Part shown: positions 16,714 to 26,263 of the stretch, one piece after another
Numbering within the stretch: the first letter of the stretch is position 1
Layout: each line of letters begins with the position of its first letter
NCBI GenBank assembly: GCA_944391115.1
Contig: CALXSJ010000005.1
Coordinates: 62,001-126,000 of the forward strand
Source of the DNA: an uncultured Victivallales bacterium
Lineage (GTDB): Bacteria > Verrucomicrobiota > Lentisphaeria > Victivallales > UBA1829
Direction: 5' to 3'
DNA length: 64,000 bases
Notes under the pieces: generated by a model
What the model was told of the DNA's origin: nothing
What the model saw: the letters and a program-made list of their open reading frames with translations, nothing else
Database searches by the model: none
Made by a program: the position numbers and the translations under genes

Positions 16714-17443
16714 GATGGAAAAGATTCCGGACTGGCAGAACCGGACCGCCCTGCTCCTCGGCGAGGAGAACCTGAACAGACTCCGCGCCGCACATGTCTT
16801 CATTGCCGGTCTGGGGGGAGTCGGCGGAATCGCCGCGGAGCTGATCTGCCGCGCGGGCGTGGGACGCATGACGATCGCGGACGGCGATCTGATCGAGGAC
16901 AGCAACCGCAACCGCCAGCTCGTTGCGCTGAGCGGCACGGCTGGGAAAGCGAAGGCGGAAGTTCTCGGAGAGCGGCTTCTCGACATCAATCCGGAACTCA
17001 GGATCACGGTTCTGAACGAGTATCTCCGCGACGACCGGCTCTTCGAAGCGCTCGGCGCGGAGCCGTATGACTGCGTGCTGGACGCAATCGACACGCTCTC
17101 TCCGAAATTCTACCTGACGCTCTACTGCGTGGAGCATGGGATTCCCCTCGTCAGCTGCATGGGGTCGGGCGCGCGGCTGGATCCGGAGGCCGTCCGGTGC
17201 GCGGACATTTCGGAGACTCGCAACTGCACGCTGGCGCGCGCCATGCGGAAACGTCTCCACCGGCACGGGATTTACCGCGGCATCACGGTCATCTACTCGC
17301 CGGAAGCGCCTGCCGGACATGCGGTGATCGCCTCGGAAGGACTGACGAACAAGCGTTCCGTCACGGGAACCATTTCCTACATGCCCGCCGTCTTCGGCTG
17401 TCACTGCGCCGCCGCCGTGATCCGCAAACTCGCTTCCATCTGA
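16706..17443 (+). CDS. tcdA: tRNA threonylcarbamoyladenosine dehydratase, TcdA/CsdL type
   Basis: 245 residues of the ThiF/MoeB/E1 fold. The nucleotide-binding GLGGVGG loop (about residues 35-41), the DGDLIEDSNRNRQ motif with the catalytic Arg/Asn pair, and DAIDTLSPK are clear. The C-terminal part (GSGARLDPEAVR, DISETRNC, GTISYMPAVFG) is characteristic of TcdA, which uses ATP to cyclise t6A37 to ct6A in tRNAs decoding ANN codons. The zinc-binding CxxC pairs of MoeB are absent, as expected. It overlaps the TatD-like gene by 8 bases and ends the operon. Confidence 0.9.
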   Translation: MNEMEKIPDWQNRTALLLGEENLNRLRAAHVFIAGLGGVGGIAAELICRAGVGRMTIADGDLIEDSNRNRQLVALSGTAGKAKAEVLGERLLDINPELRITVLNEYLRDDRLFEALGAEPYDCVLDAIDTLSPKFYLTLYCVEHGIPLVSCMGSGARLDPEAVRCADISETRNCTLARAMRKRLHRHGIYRGITVIYSPEAPAGHAVIASEGLTNKRSVTGTISYMPAVFGCHCAAAVIRKLASI

Positions 17444-17565
17444 CCGTTTTTCCTCCGGGCATCTTTTCCGGAAAAGCGTGATACTTCTCCGGGAGATCCG
17501 GACGGAAGGAAAGGAGCCGTCCGCGGCCGGGCAGGAAATATTTGCCGAAAAAATCGAAACGGGGG

Positions 17566-17593
17566 TTGACAAAGAGGGAGAATCCGTTATAAT
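17566..17593 (+). promoter_or_regulatory. Consensus promoter of cassette B
   Basis: A perfect TTGACA at 17566-17571, a 16-base spacer and a perfect TATAAT at 17588-17593, the best promoter match in the window. Transcription would start near 17600, immediately before the 10-bp repeats. The 122 bases before it hold no recognisable gene. Confidence 0.75.
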
Positions 17594-17600
17594 TTAAAGG

Positions 17601-17630
17601 AACAAGAAGAAACAAAAAGAAACAAGAGCG
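17601..17630 (+). repeat. Three tandem 10-bp repeats in the cassette B leader
   Basis: Three exact-register 10-base units, aacaagaaga, aacaaaaaga and aacaagagcg, begin at 17601, 17611 and 17621. The 10-base period would put each unit on the same face of the helix. They start at the expected +1 region of the promoter at 17566-17593 and end 5 bases before the GTG start, so they could be an operator of the regulator encoded next, or simply an A-rich translation enhancer. Confidence 0.5.
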
Positions 17631-17635
17631 GAACA

Positions 17636-20317
17636 GTGAAAAAGCTCAATGCAGGTCCGATGAAGCGCCAGAAAATACTGGAGGCGATTACCGAAAACAT
17701 CTCAAACGGGGAACTCGCTCCCGGAGAACGGATCATTCCGCTCCGGGATCTGGCAAAACAATTCTCCGTCAGTCCCTCCGTGGCCTACCGCGCCCTGAAA
17801 GACCTGGAAACAGACGGCTTTCTGGAATGCCGCGGCACGCAGGGTTTTTACGTCAGGGATCAGAAAGAAACGCATGAATCCTCCCGCGCGGGCGTTCCGG
17901 AGGAAGCGAAACGAAAGCGCGGAGACGGGCGGGTTTTTCTTTCCTGCACCTGTCACTCCGATCTGACATGGAAATACCCCTATGCCGCATATGCGGAGAT
18001 CCGGGAGAGGCAGTTCGACCGGATGGCCGCGTTCTTTCAGAGCAACGAAAACTTTCACGCCCATGTGGAACAGGCGGAACCGCTCAGAGTCTATTTCGCA
18101 AAACGTCCGGAAATGCTCCCGCTGTTCCGGAACATGGCGGAAACGGGACGCCTGACTCTGACGGGAGGAAATCTGATTCCGGATCTGAATCTCTGTTCCG
18201 GAGAGCTTCTGGTCCGCAACCTCCAGGACGGGCGGAGATACTTTGAAGAAACTTTCGGAATCTCCCCGTGGATCGCAAATGAATCGGATGCCTTCGGCAT
18301 GTGCGCGCAGCTGCCGCAGATTCTTGTCAAGTCCGGCTACCATGCGCTGATCCCCGGCAGACTGGGCAACCGCCCCGGCGAACTGGGCGGCAACATGGCA
18401 TTCCGCTGGAAGGGGATCGACGGAAGCTGCATCACGGTGACGCCGGCCACCGCGGAGATCAATCACACCGGATACTCCACCAATGTGCCGGTCATCCGGG
18501 ATGAAGCGTCAACCCTCCGCGAATCCATGCTGAAAATCCGCCGCAGCGAATATCCCGGCGATCTCCTTGTCAGCTACTGCTGCGAGGAGAATCTCTTTCA
18601 TGAATCGCTTTTTTTCCAGATGGAGGCTGTGAACAGAACGGAAGGAAGCCATCTCCTCCAGTTCGGCTCCGTCGCGGACTACTGCACGCGCATCGATCCG
18701 GAGAGCCTTCCGGAATTCAGCGGAGAGTTCAATCCCTTTTTCACCGGATGCTACACCACAAGAATCGGAATCAAGCAGACTCTGCGGAAGGCGGAGAACC
18801 TGCTCTTCGCAGCGGAAATGGCCGGCTGCGCATTCGGGAAAACCATATCCTCCGCCCCCTGGCGCCTCCTGCAGGAGGCCTCCTTTCACGACGCCGTGTG
18901 CGGCTGCCATACGGACGCCGCCTCGGAGGATGTCACGCGGAAACTGGCGGAATGCATTTCTCTCACGGAACAGGAACTGGAGGCCATGCCCCCGGCAAGA
19001 CAGGACACGCTTCTGGCATTCAATCCGGACAGTTCTTCCGGCTCTGCGATCCTTGCATATCGCTCCGGTGAGGAGCTGATCCCGGAAGGCGTTCCGGTTC
19101 AGTCCGACGGAGAACACCTCTGCTTCACGGCGGAACTTCCCGGATGCGGCGCCAGAAGTTTCCGGATGAAAAAAGGCAGACCCGCCCCGCCGCGCCCCGC
19201 GCAGGATACTTTCAGCACGAAATTCTTCGACGTCGATTTCCGCTCGCCCTATCCGAAAATCTTTTCCCGCGCATTCGGGCGCGCCCTGTCCGGCGGCGAA
19301 GGATTCGGAGAGATCCTTTTCCGCGAGGACGCGGGTTCCATGTGGGACGAGGCGTTTCTTCTGGAACCCAATGGACGCGTGTTCCTGCACGAGGAGGTGG
19401 AGAGCATCACCGTCGGCGACGTTTTCTTTGAAGCGGTCGTTACCGGGCATTGTCTCCCCTGCCCGGGAATCGACGGGGCGACGGATCCATACTGGAGCGG
19501 CTTTTCTTCGCTCTCCTTCCGCAAGGAATACCGCTTCTATCATGATCTGGATTACTTCACGCTCCGCCTCTTCCTGACCTGGAAGGGCTGCAACACGAAA
19601 ATCGCGATCCGTTTTCCCGTGAATGTCGATCCCTTCCGGGCTGCCGCGCTCTATGACGTGCCCTTCGGCAGCATCGAAAGAAAACCTTACTACGAGGTGC
19701 CGGAGCAATATGCATCCACCATGCGCCCGCTCAGCAGCTATGCCCATGCCCGTTCCGGAGACTGGCCCGCCCTGCACTGGGTGGATTATGCCGATGATTC
19801 CTTCGGCGTCGCCATGGCCAACAGCGGAACACCGGCACATCAGCTTGCGGGTGGAGCCATTCAGGCCGCACTGCTGCGCAGCGGGACCAGAATCGAAGAC
19901 GGCCGCATGCGTCCGGATCCGGGCGCATGGGACAACGGGGAGCATGTCTATGAATTCGCCTTTGCACCGCACGCGCCATTTCAGACGGATGCGGCTCTGA
20001 AGCTCGGACGGAGACTGAACCGGAAACCGCTCGCTTTCCCGCATCGGGACACTCCGGACGGAAAGCCGTTCTCTCTTCCGGGATTCAACAGGGACAACCT
20101 TGTCATCTCATCCCTGCGGCGCCAGGAGGACGGCTCATGGATTCTGCGCGCCTATGAAGCGCTCGGCAGGAACACGCCGGCCATTCTGCATCTCCCCCCG
20201 GGCGTTTCCGCGATCTTCGAATCGGATCTTCAGGAACGGCAATGGCATCCGCTTGATCCGGAAAAGACGATTTTTGCCCCCTTTGAAATAAAAACACTGC
20301 TGCTGCGCCGGAAATGA
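17636..20317 (+). CDS. GntR helix-turn-helix fused to a GH38 alpha-mannosidase-like enzyme (cassette B regulator)
   Basis: 893 residues, no signal peptide. Residues ~10-75 are a GntR winged helix ([46 protein letters not shown]). After a charged linker (~76-98) comes a full-length GH38-type enzyme. CHSDLTW gives His107 and Asp109 as metal ligands, [16 protein letters not shown] gives Asp218 in the nucleophile position of the family's D-x-FG motif, and FHDAVCG gives His418 as the remaining ligand. The C-terminal ~450 residues form the expected beta-sandwiches. All four key residues are kept, so it may be catalytically active. The GTG at 17636 is used; an ATG at 17660 is an alternative that keeps the whole helix-turn-helix. 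It has a consensus promoter and is followed directly by a pseudopilin. A cytoplasmic enzyme-sensor regulating cassette B is an inference. Confidence 0.9.
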
Positions 20318-20334
20318 CGGGAAAGGAGCGCATT

Positions 20335-21120
20335 ATGCTGATGCGGAGAAAAAAATCATTTACATTGATCGAGCTTCTGGTCGTAATCGCCATCATTGCA
20401 ATTCTCGCGGCCCTGCTGATGCCTGCTCTGAGCAACGCGAAAAAGACGGCAAAAACAGTGCAGTGCAAAAGCAACATGAAACAGTTCGGCGTATTGTGCG
20501 CCCAGTATTGTCTGGACAATTCGGATTTCACGCCGCCCAACCTTGATTCCGGCCGGAAATTCCACGACGGCAACGGCACACAGGATTACGCCTGGTTTGA
20601 GTATCTGAACGACATCATCTCTCCTTCCGAAGGGAATTTCACCGAGTCGACGGGAAGCGTTCTCAAAAAGAATTCGGTGCATCACCTCATGATGTCGAAA
20701 AGCATCGGGGAGAATGCGGGGCGCCCCGCCGCGATTTTCGCCTGTCCGGAAGCTCTCGCGATCAACAGCGCGGAGTATAAATACTGCTATATCGCCAATG
20801 CCACAAATGACTACCGCTATGCGCAGGACCGTTTCTGCAACGCCTTCATGAACACAAACCTGTGGACGAAAATCAAATTATCCGGAATCCGTTTCCCCTC
20901 ACGCCTGGCCGCATTCGGGGAAGGCAGCGAAAGTCCGACCACACGGAATCAGTTTCATCTGTCCAACATCAACTACTACCGTTTTTCGCATAAGCGCCAG
21001 ATGAACGTGACGTATGCCGACGGTCATGTCGATATCGTCTCCTATGCGGGAATGGCCTATAAGATCGCAGTCAGGACCACAAATCCCGCCGCGGGGGAGT
21101 TCTTCCTGAACACACGCTGA
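20335..21120 (+). CDS. Pseudopilin-like protein, DUF1559-like (cassette B)
   Basis: 261 residues from the ATG at 20335, chosen for the AAAGGAGC eight bases upstream; an earlier in-frame ATG at 20314 overlaps the regulator stop as ATGA. The N-terminus [20 protein letters not shown] is a prepilin signal with the conserved FTLIE and a hydrophobic helix ending [13 protein letters not shown]. The C-terminal part has [19 protein letters not shown], the H-X9-DG motif of Lentisphaerota/Planctomycetota pseudopilins. Cys residues (VQCKSNM, FACPEA, KYCYI) could form disulfides. It occupies the same place in cassette B as the pseudopilin at 6685 does in cassette A. Confidence 0.9.
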
Positions 21121-21185
21121 AAAAATGCATTCCAACCCGAATACGGAACATATGAAGATAAAAACATAACAAGGAGAAGCCACAA

Positions 21186-21779
21186 GTGAAATTCATCGGA
21201 CTGCTGTCATTGCTCGCAGCCGGAAGCTGCCTTGCACAGGAATACGGAGTTACCGTGGAAAAAGACGGTTCCGTCAAGGAGAATTGCGTTTCCTTCTGGG
21301 AACGTGCAGGAGGAAGAGAGGGGAAATATGCGATTCTTTCCGCAGGAGACCGGAAAGGACTGACCTCCACAGGCGTCATTTATCTGAAGGTCGACGACAA
21401 GCTGGATGCATCCCTCCGGACGGAAGGAACGGAAGTTGCCGTGGAAATCATCTATTACGATGGCGCGCCGGGTTCATTCAACGTTTTCTACGATTCCACG
21501 GATCCGGCCTTTCTGCGCATCAGGACACAGCCCGGCGCATGGAAAGTTCCGGAAGGCGGAAAAGTCATGCTGAAGGGTGACGGACAATGGAAAAGCGTTG
21601 TCCTGCCCTTGCCCATGTTCAATTTCCGGAGCAACCGCCTCAATGGAGCTGATCTGCGGATTGATTTCGTCGGAAAAGCGAAAAGCGCTGTCGCCATCGC
21701 CGCGGTGAGACTGAAAAAGCAGACTCCTTCCGCCGCAAAACAAGTGACTCCGGAAGACAAGGAAAAGACAAGCAAATGA
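21186..21779 (+). CDS. Short secreted protein, copy of the next gene's N-terminal domain (cassette B)
   Basis: 197 residues with a Sec signal peptide (MKFIGLLSLLAAGSCLA, cleavage before QEYGV). The GTG start at 21186 is supported by AAGGAG ten bases before it. The mature domain carries SFWERAGGREGKY, LTSTGVIYLKVDDKLD, IIYYDGAPGSF, RTQPGAW and SNRLNGADLRIDF. Each of these has a near-identical counterpart in residues ~20-190 of the next protein. It ends in a Lys/Glu/Pro-rich tail. The family is not recognised; it looks like a beta-sandwich similar in size to a carbohydrate-binding module. The stop overlaps the next start (ATGA), so both are made together. Confidence 0.85.
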   Translation: MKFIGLLSLLAAGSCLAQEYGVTVEKDGSVKENCVSFWERAGGREGKYAILSAGDRKGLTSTGVIYLKVDDKLDASLRTEGTEVAVEIIYYDGAPGSFNVFYDSTDPAFLRIRTQPGAWKVPEGGKVMLKGDGQWKSVVLPLPMFNFRSNRLNGADLRIDFVGKAKSAVAIAAVRLKKQTPSAAKQVTPEDKEKTSK

Positions 21780-24700
21780 AGAAAATATTCTGGGTGTCAG
21801 CAGCGCTGGCGGTCTGCCTCTCCGGACACGCCGCAGACTGCGGAGTTTCGCTGAAGCCGGACGGGGGAACCGAAGAAAACGGCATGTCGTTCTGGGAACG
21901 TGCAGGAGGAAGAGAGGGGAAATATTCCGTAATAAGCGCAGAAGGGAAGAAGGGCTTGACTTCCAGTGGCGTCATTTACGTCAAGATCGACGACAAGCTG
22001 GATGAAGCACTCCTTCCGCCGTCGGCAAGGGCAGACTCCATGTTTGCGCTGGAAATCGTCTATTATGACGGCGCACCCGGATCTTTTCATCTCTATTACG
22101 ACTCCTCCGACGCCACCTGCCGTAGGATCAAAACACAGCCCGGTGCATGGCGGACCCCCGACTGCGGAAAGATTCCGCTGAACGGGGACCGGCAGTGGAA
22201 GACTCTTCTGCTTCCCCTGCCCTATGCGGATTTCAAAAGCAACCGGCTCAACGGAGGGGATCTGCGCTTTGATCTTCACAATGGAGCGGTGAACCACTTC
22301 GCGATCGGTTCGCTCCGGGTGAAAGTCATCCCGGCGCTGAAGCGGGAGAGTCCGCCGGTGAAACGGGATCTGCGGGTCGAGAAAGCGGAACATCTGCATG
22401 CCTATTCCTACGGGGCGCGCCATCGCGGGAAGTTTGTGCAGGAGGGAGCCGGTCCGCTGGTCATGGAGGCGGAACATGCAGCGGAAATAACAGGAAACAA
22501 CGGAAATCCGGTTCTGAAAATGAACGGCGCCTCCGGTGATGCCGTCCTCCACTACGTGGAATCGGCGAAATGGGATTTTGAAATCCGGACGCCGGGACGC
22601 TACCGGATCTGGCTGCGCTCGTTCTTTCCGCATTCCGGAGCATGGAACCACTCCGAGTCCCTGGGGGAAGAGGGCGGATACGTCGTCGACGGAACGCTCG
22701 GGCCTGCGGACGGCTGGCGATGGATTCGCGGCATCGCGGCGGATCTGAGCGCGGGGAAACACTCCTTCTCCCTGAATTACATGGGCGGCGCGCGTCTCGA
22801 TCAGATTGCGCTCATTCCGGAAAAGAACGGGAAGCCGGAAAGCGGAATCCTTCCCAGTTCCCCCTCCGGCGCCCGGAGAGATGCGAAAGTGGCCTGTGCG
22901 GAAGTCCGGCCGTTCCAGGTGAAACAGTGGAAACGCGTGACGTTCGACATTCTGAACGCCGCAGCCGCCAATGTTCTCTGCAGCACGGACGGCGGAAAAA
23001 GCTGGAAGGAACTGCCCGCCGGCGGCGATCTGTCGGCAGTCCCCTGCCGGGGCGACGGTTCCGACCGCATCCGTTTTCAGGTCGCGGTGAACGGAATTGC
23101 CGGAAAAACGCCGCTCTTCAACGGCGCCGCGCTGGAATATCTTCCGGGAAGCGGCAGTGTCAAGGTATTGGAAAACAGCGCCGCAAGGATTGAATTCGAC
23201 GGGATCCGGGTGAGAAGGATCGAGGATAAAAAACGCGGAAGCCAGGTTCTCCGGAGTTCCGCTGTGAGCGCGCCGCTGGCCGAACTCACGGTAAAGAAAA
23301 CTGGAGACGCGCCGGCGGAACCAATCGATCTGCTGAATGCCGCATTCGAAGGGATGCGGAGCGGCGGAACGAAGGAAGAGCCCGAATTGCAATTTCAGTA
23401 TTCATTTTCCAACGGGATCCGGTTTTCGCCGAAGGTGCGTCTGCGGAAAGACGGGCAGTCCGAATGGACGGCTTCGATCGAGACCCCTCCGGGACTGGAA
23501 GTCTGCGAGCTGGCATACCCGGTTTTCCACGGCGTCAGCCTCGGCGCGGATCCGTCCGACGATCTGACATTCTGCGCGGAGACCTGGCGTCAGATCTGGC
23601 GCAACGCCTACCGGAGGAAAGGCGGAAAAATGCCGACATCCGTCAGGTTCATGGCGATGTGGGATGCGAAGCAGGGCGTCTATCTCGGCATTGAGGATCC
23701 GCGTTTCGACGACTGGTATTTCCACCGGAGTTCCGACGGCAACGGCGGGGCGATGATGGGCGTCACCCTGCGCATGCTGGCAAAAGGCGCCTCCCGCTGG
23801 GAAAGCGGCGTCTGCCGTCTCGCCCTGGTGGACGGGGGCAACTGGATTCCCGCGGCCGACATCGCGCGCAGTTACAACCGCGCCCGCCTGAAACAGCCGG
23901 ACATCCATCCCTGCGTCAAATGGCTGGCCGACGGCTGGATCTATCCCGACTCCAACCGCTACCCATGGTCAGGCTGGGATGTGCTGAACTCCATGGACTG
24001 GGATCAGTACAGCGGCAGAAGCTTCACGGAAAAGGGATATTGCTCCGACATTCCGTTTTCCGCGGTGAACCGCCAGATGCTGGACGGAGCCGATGCGGCC
24101 TACTGCGGCGTCTATCCGTATCCATGCCTGGTATGGGGAAGCGTCCGGGAATTCCGGGAAAAACTCGCTCTTCACAAGGCGCTCGGCGGATTCCTGCTCT
24201 CCTACATCAACTTCAATCTCTGGGCTCCCGGCTACGGCCATTACAAAAGGATCGGCTCCTATCCGAAGGTGCACCTGCCTTCAGACGCCCCGCTTCCCGA
24301 CGACAACTGGTATGCGAAAGTGGCGACCCGGAGATACGACGGCTCTTACGCACGGGTGGAAACAGAGCATTTCGAACAGTATCCCATGGCGGTCTGCTCC
24401 CCGGAATGGCGCAAATGGTTGCGGGAATGGACGGCGCGCTATCTGAAGTGGGGTGGAGACGGCATGTATTACGACCAGCTCAACATGACCTATTACAACG
24501 GGCGCCTCTATCCGGATTTCGCGGAAAGTTACGGAAGCTGGATCAAGGCCAGCGCCGAAACGATCCGCAGGATCAAGGAGGAATCCCGGCGCGTCAATCC
24601 CTATTCGACCAGCGCGGGAGAAGTCTGCAATGAAATCATCGGGCAGTATCTGGACTTGCACATGACAAGCGGCGTCTTCGCGCAGCATCAGGTCTACAAA

Positions 24701-26263
24701 TACGCCAATCCCTCCCATCTCGTCATCGACGGCCGCTGGAACGGCGGAGACACTCTGAAGCGGCACCGTTTCATCTGGCAGACCGGCGCCCGCTTCGAAC
24801 AGGGCATTTATCCGCAATACCTCGCGCTCCGCCGGGCGGTGAAGAGCATGCTGTATGATGCGGAATACATGGATGCGAAAGGCATAGTCATCCGCGATGC
24901 CGCCGGAAGAACCGTGGACGACACGATCCGTTTCGAAAAGGGCTCCGATCTGCCGGCGCATGCGTCCACGGGCGTCACAGGCCGCTGGTTCCTCTACCTG
25001 AACGGGAAGGAAAAAGGCGCCGTAATCAATCTCATCAATGTCGCCTCGGAAAAACGGAAAGGCAGAAATTTCACCACGACGTCCCATCAGGGGATGACGC
25101 TCAGCATTGACACTGCGGCGTTCGGAGCGGTCAGGCATGCGATGGTCTTTCCCCTCGCGGGTGCGCCTTTTGTCCTGAAGGGAACGCAGAAGGGAATGAT
25201 GTACACCTTCGACGTTCCGGCAGTGGAAGCGGCCTCCGTCGTGCTGTCCAATCGCGTGCGCCCGCTGGTGCAGTGGAGCCAGAATCCCGTCACCTGTCCC
25301 GGCGGCGTGGTGACGCAGAAAGTGAAAATCATCAATGTCAACGCGGAAGCGCTTTCCGGTACGGTCTGTCAGAAGCTTCCCGCATCCTGGCGGGGATCCG
25401 GAAAAGTCTCCTATGGCCCCCTGCCCCCGGGCGCGGAAACCGAACTTCTTTTGCGCTGCCAGGTTCCGGAAAACGCCCGGCAGGGACGCTATGACGTCTG
25501 GACGGAAGTCTCTTCCGGCGCAGGCAGTTTCAACGCCTATCATTATGCCGTGGTCAATCCGCCGCTGCTTGCGGATCTGCGCGGACGGCACGGAACCTTC
25601 CGACTCTGGCTGCGGAATCTCTCCGGGAAACCACTCCGCCTTGCTCTTTCCGCATCGGGGAAAGCGCCGCTGCACGCCGCCATTCAGAAGGAAACAACGC
25701 TTGCCCCGAAAGAGGAACGGGAAATTCCGCTAAGCGTCTCCGGCATGGAAAAACTGCGGGAACTGAGCCGGATTGAAGTTGCGGTCCGTGGCGCAGGGAT
25801 GAATTTTTCCCGGGAGAAGGCCGTCATGCCGCGTCTGCCGAACGCGGATTTCGAAACGGATTCGGCGGACGACGGAAAACCCGACTGGTGGATGTGCCGC
25901 TACCGTCCCGGCGGTGCATGGGCATATGAAAAGATCAGCCTCACGACGGATGCGCACGGGGGGAAATACGCGCTGCGGATCGCTCCCTCCGACAGAAAGA
26001 AACAGGGAGTCGCCGTTGTGCCGGTCAACTTTGACGCGGAGGATGGGAAGAGCTACAGAATCTCTTTTTACACGAAATCCCCGGAAGGCGGGAATACGCT
26101 GATGTTCGCCGGACACATCATTCCGATTCCGCAGTCGAAGGAGTGGGTCCGGACGGAAAAGACGCTGAAGGTCTCCGCGGTCCGCTGGAACTATTTCCAG
26201 ATCGTCAACCAGTCATCCGCGGAACTCCTGATTGACGATATCGCCCTGGAGGACGTCCGGTAA
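21776..26263 (+). CDS. Very large secreted glycosidase-like protein (cassette B)
   Basis: 1495 residues with a Sec signal peptide (cleavage near GHA-AD, residue 20). Domains in order: N-terminal ~170-residue domain shared with the preceding short protein; residues ~205-360 a malectin/CBM35-like module (MEAEHAAEITG, GRYRIWLRSFFP, RLDQIALIPE); a beta-rich region with a predicted super-sandwich (~450-700); and a TIM-barrel-like region (~715-1040) with DGWIYPDSNRYPWSGWD and GGDGMYYDQLNM, where Asp900 sits like a glycosidase nucleophile. An Ig-like region follows, then a C-terminal CBM4/9-like module (LPNADFETDSADDGKPDWW to LLIDDIALEDV). The barrel may belong to the DUF6259-type glycosidase-like group, but this is from memory of motifs only. 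The substrate is unknown; no transmembrane anchor is visible. Confidence 0.85.
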   Translation: MKKIFWVSAALAVCLSGHAADCGVSLKPDGGTEENGMSFWERAGGREGKYSVISAEGKKGLTSSGVIYVKIDDKLDEALLPPSARADSMFALEIVYYDGAPGSFHLYYDSSDATCRRIKTQPGAWRTPDCGKIPLNGDRQWKTLLLPLPYADFKSNRLNGGDLRFDLHNGAVNHFAIGSLRVKVIPALKRESPPVKRDLRVEKAEHLHAYSYGARHRGKFVQEGAGPLVMEAEHAAEITGNNGNPVLKMNGASGDAVLHYVESAKWDFEIRTPGRYRIWLRSFFPHSGAWNHSESLGEEGGYVVDGTLGPADGWRWIRGIAADLSAGKHSFSLNYMGGARLDQIALIPEKNGKPESGILPSSPSGARRDAKVACAEVRPFQVKQWKRVTFDILNAAAANVLCSTDGGKSWKELPAGGDLSAVPCRGDGSDRIRFQVAVNGIAGKTPLFNGAALEYLPGSGSVKVLENSAARIEFDGIRVRRIEDKKRGSQVLRSSAVSAPLAELTVKKTGDAPAEPIDLLNAAFEGMRSGGTKEEPELQFQYSFSNGIRFSPKVRLRKDGQSEWTASIETPPGLEVCELAYPVFHGVSLGADPSDDLTFCAETWRQIWRNAYRRKGGKMPTSVRFMAMWDAKQGVYLGIEDPRFDDWYFHRSSDGNGGAMMGVTLRMLAKGASRWESGVCRLALVDGGNWIPAADIARSYNRARLKQPDIHPCVKWLADGWIYPDSNRYPWSGWDVLNSMDWDQYSGRSFTEKGYCSDIPFSAVNRQMLDGADAAYCGVYPYPCLVWGSVREFREKLALHKALGGFLLSYINFNLWAPGYGHYKRIGSYPKVHLPSDAPLPDDNWYAKVATRRYDGSYARVETEHFEQYPMAVCSPEWRKWLREWTARYLKWGGDGMYYDQLNMTYYNGRLYPDFAESYGSWIKASAETIRRIKEESRRVNPYSTSAGEVCNEIIGQYLDLHMTSGVFAQHQVYKYANPSHLVIDGRWNGGDTLKRHRFIWQTGARFEQGIYPQYLALRRAVKSMLYDAEYMDAKGIVIRDAAGRTVDDTIRFEKGSDLPAHASTGVTGRWFLYLNGKEKGAVINLINVASEKRKGRNFTTTSHQGMTLSIDTAAFGAVRHAMVFPLAGAPFVLKGTQKGMMYTFDVPAVEAASVVLSNRVRPLVQWSQNPVTCPGGVVTQKVKIINVNAEALSGTVCQKLPASWRGSGKVSYGPLPPGAETELLLRCQVPENARQGRYDVWTEVSSGAGSFNAYHYAVVNPPLLADLRGRHGTFRLWLRNLSGKPLRLALSASGKAPLHAAIQKETTLAPKEEREIPLSVSGMEKLRELSRIEVAVRGAGMNFSREKAVMPRLPNADFETDSADDGKPDWWMCRYRPGGAWAYEKISLTTDAHGGKYALRIAPSDRKKQGVAVVPVNFDAEDGKSYRISFYTKSPEGGNTLMFAGHIIPIPQSKEWVRTEKTLKVSAVRWNYFQIVNQSSAELLIDDIALEDVR

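Follow-up and report, generated by a model that had tools for sequence, protein, structure and literature searches.

We asked whether a reading frame that joins a GntR DNA-binding domain to a complete glycosidase in an uncultured Victivallales bacterium is a genuine gene, and what such a protein might do. The frame lies at 17636..20317 of the window, the 64-kb stretch of DNA analyzed here (this and all other features are on the + strand), and runs from a GTG start to a TGA stop with zero internal stops, encoding 893 aa. Pfam searches, in which all matches to the protein exceeded the curated cut-offs, placed a GntR winged helix at residues 11–73 (17666..17854; PF00392, 43.6 bits against a cut-off of 27) and a complete set of GH38 modules across residues 102–888. 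The latter comprises the N-terminal catalytic domain (residues 102–355, 17939..18700; Glyco_hydro_38N, 90.6 bits), the alpha-mannosidase middle domain (residues 368–447, 18737..18976; Alpha-mann_mid, 40.1 bits) and the C-terminal beta-sandwich domains at 19517..20299 (Glyco_hydro_38C, residues 628–752, 26.4 bits; Glyco_hydro38C2, residues 821–888, 41.5 bits). An AlphaFold2 model of the protein (pLDDT 88.5) contained a disordered linker at residues 77–96 (17864..17923; pLDDT <50). The body of the model matched the GH38 enzyme 7vqo over nearly its full length (Z 35.6, 710 residues, 2.7 Å) and the solved GH38 enzymes 2wyh and 5kbp with Z 32, and its N-terminus matched the AraR DNA-binding domain 5d4r (Z 13.1, 71 residues, 1.8 Å). 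The first-pass annotation, made from the letters alone, had described a GntR winged helix at residues ~10–75, a GH38-like region of ~790 residues and no signal peptide. The profile searches and structure prediction that it proposed as checks agree with this description: both domains were recovered, with all four GH38 modules, a fold match of Z ~35 and an AraR-like DNA-binding N-terminus, and the chain begins with the winged helix. By profile and by structure the C-terminal part is GH38 and not a MocR aminotransferase fold, and no Pfam match to Peripla_BP, the LacI-type binding domain of the AraR subfamily, was found in the protein.

A frameshift or misjoin at residues 80–95 had been named as the event that would undo this interpretation. 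It is excluded by independent assemblies, which show the identical full-length frame. The source genome itself also has two fused paralogues (the paralogue at C14 carries the fusion at 46% identity), and an assembly error or frameshift that merged two genes is thereby ruled out for all practical purposes, even with one homologue, L071, split into two overlapping frames. In that homologue the gene (L071:4274-6939) is read as frames of 293 and 595 aa, with the break inside GH38N, which may be a sequencing error or a genuine split. Another genome of the same genus, G040, carries orthologues of both the window gene (89% identity, full-length) and the C14 paralogue. About 20 further homologues have the GntR-GH38 fusion, all from uncultured Lentisphaerota, including full-length fusions of 35–51% identity in MAGs from the guts of goats and sheep, from other guts and from the environment. 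In a contig scan of 84,980 species, all fused relatives belonged to Lentisphaerota, and the more distant matches in Armatimonadota, Chloroflexota and Bacillota were free GH38 enzymes. A survey of the architecture across Lentisphaerota, also suggested by the first-pass annotation, limited the fusion to the window's order within a 388-genome sample of the phylum. Family members are known only as MAGs, with no isolates seen among them, and no relatives were found in viral contigs.

Against the orthologue, dN/dS was 0.04 in the GntR domain and 0.14 in the GH38 body, indicating that both halves are under purifying selection; the linker value was 0.26, and the corresponding identities were 97%, 89% and 59%. 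In the GH38 tree, 20 fused rows group together with a single free enzyme, L058 (SH-aLRT 99), and the free Lentisphaerota enzymes L070 and L048 fall outside this group. An exclusive clade of fused rows was rejected, as L058 nests inside (p-AU 0.008). This free GH38 (L058:7965-10394; 45% identical to the window protein) is adjoined by a sialic acid esterase-like gene and a GH106-like gene. From its position it apparently lost the DNA-binding domain; its upstream sequence showed no trace of a winged helix. The tree is most simply read as a single fusion and one subsequent loss, in part because an ECRGxxGFYV motif is common to the winged helices of most family members, and two separate fusions are possible.

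We then considered whether the GH38 body could be an active enzyme. The first-pass annotation had placed the metal and nucleophile set at His107 (17954-17956), Asp109 (17960-17962), Asp218 (18287-18289) and His418 (18887-18889, in the middle domain). These positions proved correct and are invariant in every full-length member. Together with E317 of the N-terminal domain (18584-18586), which is likewise invariant, they are identical in 18/18 fused rows and 6/6 free relatives (alignment A2), the metal ligands and nucleophile being unchanged over a range of 35–89% identity. What had gone unremarked is that the fusion protein lacks GxGDGGGGP, the motif with the canonical acid/base Asp of GH38. By alignment and secondary structure, E317 follows strand 310–316, at the end of the strand corresponding to the Asp motif, and it appears to replace the usual acid/base Asp; the same Glu occurs in the free GH38 relatives of Armatimonadota, Chloroflexota and Bacillota. 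With the catalytic residues invariant, a degenerate glycosidase is not supported, and the sequence argues that the body is probably a catalytically competent cytoplasmic alpha-glycosidase. The earlier label of alpha-mannosidase stands as to family and conserved active site, and GH38 membership suggests terminal alpha-mannose as the sugar; mannose itself is not certain, because a D-mannonate dehydratase (UxuA) gene adjoins some relatives (L046 and its kin). Two loci encode GH38-like proteins next to a GntR-GH38 gene (L046:9425-11917, also with UxuA, and L039:9506-11992); their FHD motif reads MDHNQNGIGG, so the metal site looks altered.

The fusion gene heads an operon. A sigma-70 type promoter, TTGACA-N16-TATAAT, lies at 17566..17593 with a 12/12 consensus match; it is the only promoter-like site within 17400-21900, and both hexamers are identical in the orthologue L052. 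Downstream lies a pseudopilin gene (20314..21120; PF07963, 34.4 bits), which in its longest frame shares 4 nt with the regulator gene and whose likely start is 20335 or 20341. It is followed by a gene for a 197-aa protein (21186..21779) with no Pfam match, which closely resembles the N-terminal region of the adjacent product, and by the last gene of the operon (21776..26263), encoding 1495 aa with a signal-like N-terminus. The latter had sub-threshold Pfam matches only; it is presumed to be glycan-active and may be an undescribed enzyme. The pseudopilin and glycan-active genes named by the first-pass annotation as following the regulator are present, the glycan role of the large secreted protein being presumed. 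The order of regulator, then pseudopilin, is kept in the orthologous locus L035.

This arrangement follows a pattern of the source genome (G000, 3.66 Mb). Counts taken from tables of search matches gave 65 GntR matches and ~138 pseudopilin-like matches, and a pseudopilin lies directly downstream on the same strand of 33/65 GntR genes, against ~0.85 expected from density. A Peripla_BP_3 domain is present in 34 of the GntR genes. As GntR followed by pseudopilin is the normal layout in this genome, GntR-GH38 takes the place of the regulator. A cassette of one regulator and one pseudopilin seems to be the standard operon layout of the genome. In ten other GntR proteins without Peripla_BP (339–522 aa; a survey that left out the frames of L083 and L084), the search for a second Pfam domain returned only overlapping HTH models; GntR proteins of ~440–520 aa without a second Pfam domain are found at L081, L082, L085, L086 and L089. 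Across the family, a same-strand pseudopilin is next or next but one in 15/19 genes with enough downstream sequence. It is missing after four genes with downstream sequence (L038, L039, L046 and L066), showing that the target set of the family is not uniform. At L047, a free sister GH38 is gene four of an operon that starts with GntR-PBP and pseudopilin, an arrangement suggesting that the sensor may have arisen by capture of an enzyme encoded in such an operon.

The upstream regions of family members contain a putative operator. In the window, three tandem boxes, GAACAAG, GAAACAA and GAAACAA (starts 17600, 17609 and 17619; 17600..17626; reverse complement TTGTTTC), cover the region of the transcription start and follow closely after the -10 hexamer. 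No other tandem of this box class occurs in the 64-kb window, and the genome of 3.66 Mb contains GAAACAANNNGAAACAA at a single place, window 17609-17625. Tandem boxes ~10 bp apart recur in family upstream regions, either as TTGTATTTTT repeats before the -35 hexamer or, close to the start codon, in the opposite orientation; both forms are present in L057. In L057, L061, L059, L060, L071, L075 and the paralogue they precede the start codon by ~80–124 nt and sit upstream of -35; in L064, L065, L068 and the window they are no more than 50 nt away from it. A regular expression found tandem boxes in 12/17 family upstream regions against 0.39 expected in shuffles (maximum 3), and in 0/24 regions preceding GntR genes outside the family (Fisher p 8e-7), although the shuffle figure and the p-value are optimistic because the motif was spotted by eye in sequences later counted. 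The control set omits L101, L071, L102 and L075, which are fragments of family genes, and the CTGTATTTTTTTGTATTTTT of the paralogue was narrowly missed by the expression. The pattern TGTATTTN(1-4)TTGTATTT has one occurrence in the genome, at the C14 paralogue, and a search that allowed mismatches agreed that the box pair of this gene is unique. The stronger tests are the 0/24 control and the genome-wide uniqueness, and by association the boxes are a putative family-specific operator of the fusion protein. The window clade combines GTTTC boxes with the recognition helix SVAYRAL, and most other members combine GTATT boxes with SVIQNAL or SVIQRAL, a possible co-variation of helix and box with few independent cases.

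Collectively, these observations suggest, with a probability of roughly 60%, that the fusion protein acts as a one-component transcription regulator specific to its own operon, and thus autoregulated, with a complete, probably catalytically competent GH38 enzyme as sensor. Without substrate, an oligomer would sit on the tandem TTGTTTC/TTGTAT boxes over its own promoter and keep the operon repressed. Induction would begin when an oligosaccharide ending in an alpha-linked sugar (mannose or a close relative) is imported and enters the GH38 active site; ligand in the pocket would change the oligomer and loosen its hold on DNA. Regulator, pseudopilin and large exported protein would then be expressed. 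The enzyme would use up its own inducer, so the switch would reset once the supply ends. We put forward more tentatively, as something we would not yet bet on, that the sensor is a working glycosidase that reads oligosaccharide flux by cutting, with self-terminating induction, in a single-order family that co-evolved with its tandem operator. If the enzyme is active, a sensor destroying its own signal would be a simple way of tracking glycan supply. The family also offers a way into the regulation of the many pseudopilin and glycan-degradation operons of Lentisphaerota, on which we found little published.

The evidence bears unequally on the other ways of reading this protein. The GH38 body might have lost hydrolysis and bind sugar in the manner of a periplasmic-binding-protein domain, which would fit the missing acid/base Asp motif, the Glu possibly meaning altered or absent catalysis, and the fact that most GntR effector domains merely bind ligands (PMC4494728). 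We regard this as unlikely, given that the metal ligands and nucleophile are invariant, that free GH38 relatives have the same Glu, and that the free L058 nests in the fused clade as if the module worked alone as an enzyme. The direction of control matters as well. Boxes upstream of -35 in the seven genes listed above would suit an activator that recruits polymerase, and activation is possible in those members. As a general reading it is improbable: L064, L065, L068 and the window itself have their boxes near the start codon, those of the window fall just past -10, and the 12/12 consensus promoter of the window needs no activator. Boxes placed past -10 and across the transcription start, as in the window, fit steric repression, which is the more probable mode of control there.

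Another possibility is that catalysis is the main task of the protein: a cytoplasmic glycosidase serving catabolism would also repress the operon that encodes it, so that expression tracks the state of the enzyme with no dedicated signal. The GH38 body is intact, bifunctional enzyme-regulators such as PutA and BirA exist, and with the fusion gene at the head of the operon, enzyme and targets would be made together. Two free GH38 genes are already present in the source genome, however, and the fused genes fill the slot of dedicated regulators, which makes this explanation doubtful.

BirA and PutA each combine a DNA-binding domain and an active enzyme in one chain, PutA being of the trigger-enzyme type. 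They resemble the fusion protein in this respect, but their enzyme and DNA-binding folds are unrelated to those found here, and their reactions are not glycan hydrolysis. The GH38 alpha-mannosidases of Streptococcus pyogenes (2wyh) and Enterococcus faecalis (5kbp) and Ams1 (6lz1) share with the fusion protein the domain set, the fold, and the HxD, Asp nucleophile and FHD motifs; they differ in having no DNA-binding domain and an Asp as acid/base, at 15–20% identity. The first-pass annotation pointed to no described GntR-GH38 family. Searches of the open-access literature likewise yielded no description, and no relevant papers that link GntR to GH38 or to Victivallis or that deal with fusions of a regulator and a glycosidase. 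The GntR subfamilies are named by effector domain as FadR, HutC, MocR, YtrA, AraR and PlmA (PMC4494728); a glycosidase effector is not among these six, and the family appears to form a new GntR subfamily. AraR, a sugar-operon regulator, provides the best structural match to the DNA-binding domain, and its ara-box half-site resembles the TTGTA core of the family boxes (PMC4218819), whereas its effector is a LacI-type binding protein without catalysis and its operators are palindromic. Direct-repeat operators are known for other GntR regulators, including FarR (TGTATTAWTT; PMC4494728) and MocR types (PMC5320631). The FarR operator is close to the TTGTATTTTT tandem, but FarR-type HutC regulators have a UbiC-like small-molecule fold as effector. 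Closest in kind to GntR-GH38 is MocR: MocR/GabR/PdxR regulators likewise consist of a GntR winged helix, a linker and a large enzyme-derived domain and use direct-repeat operators (PMC5320631, PMC4494728), with a PLP aminotransferase fold as effector where the present family has a full GH38 glycosidase.
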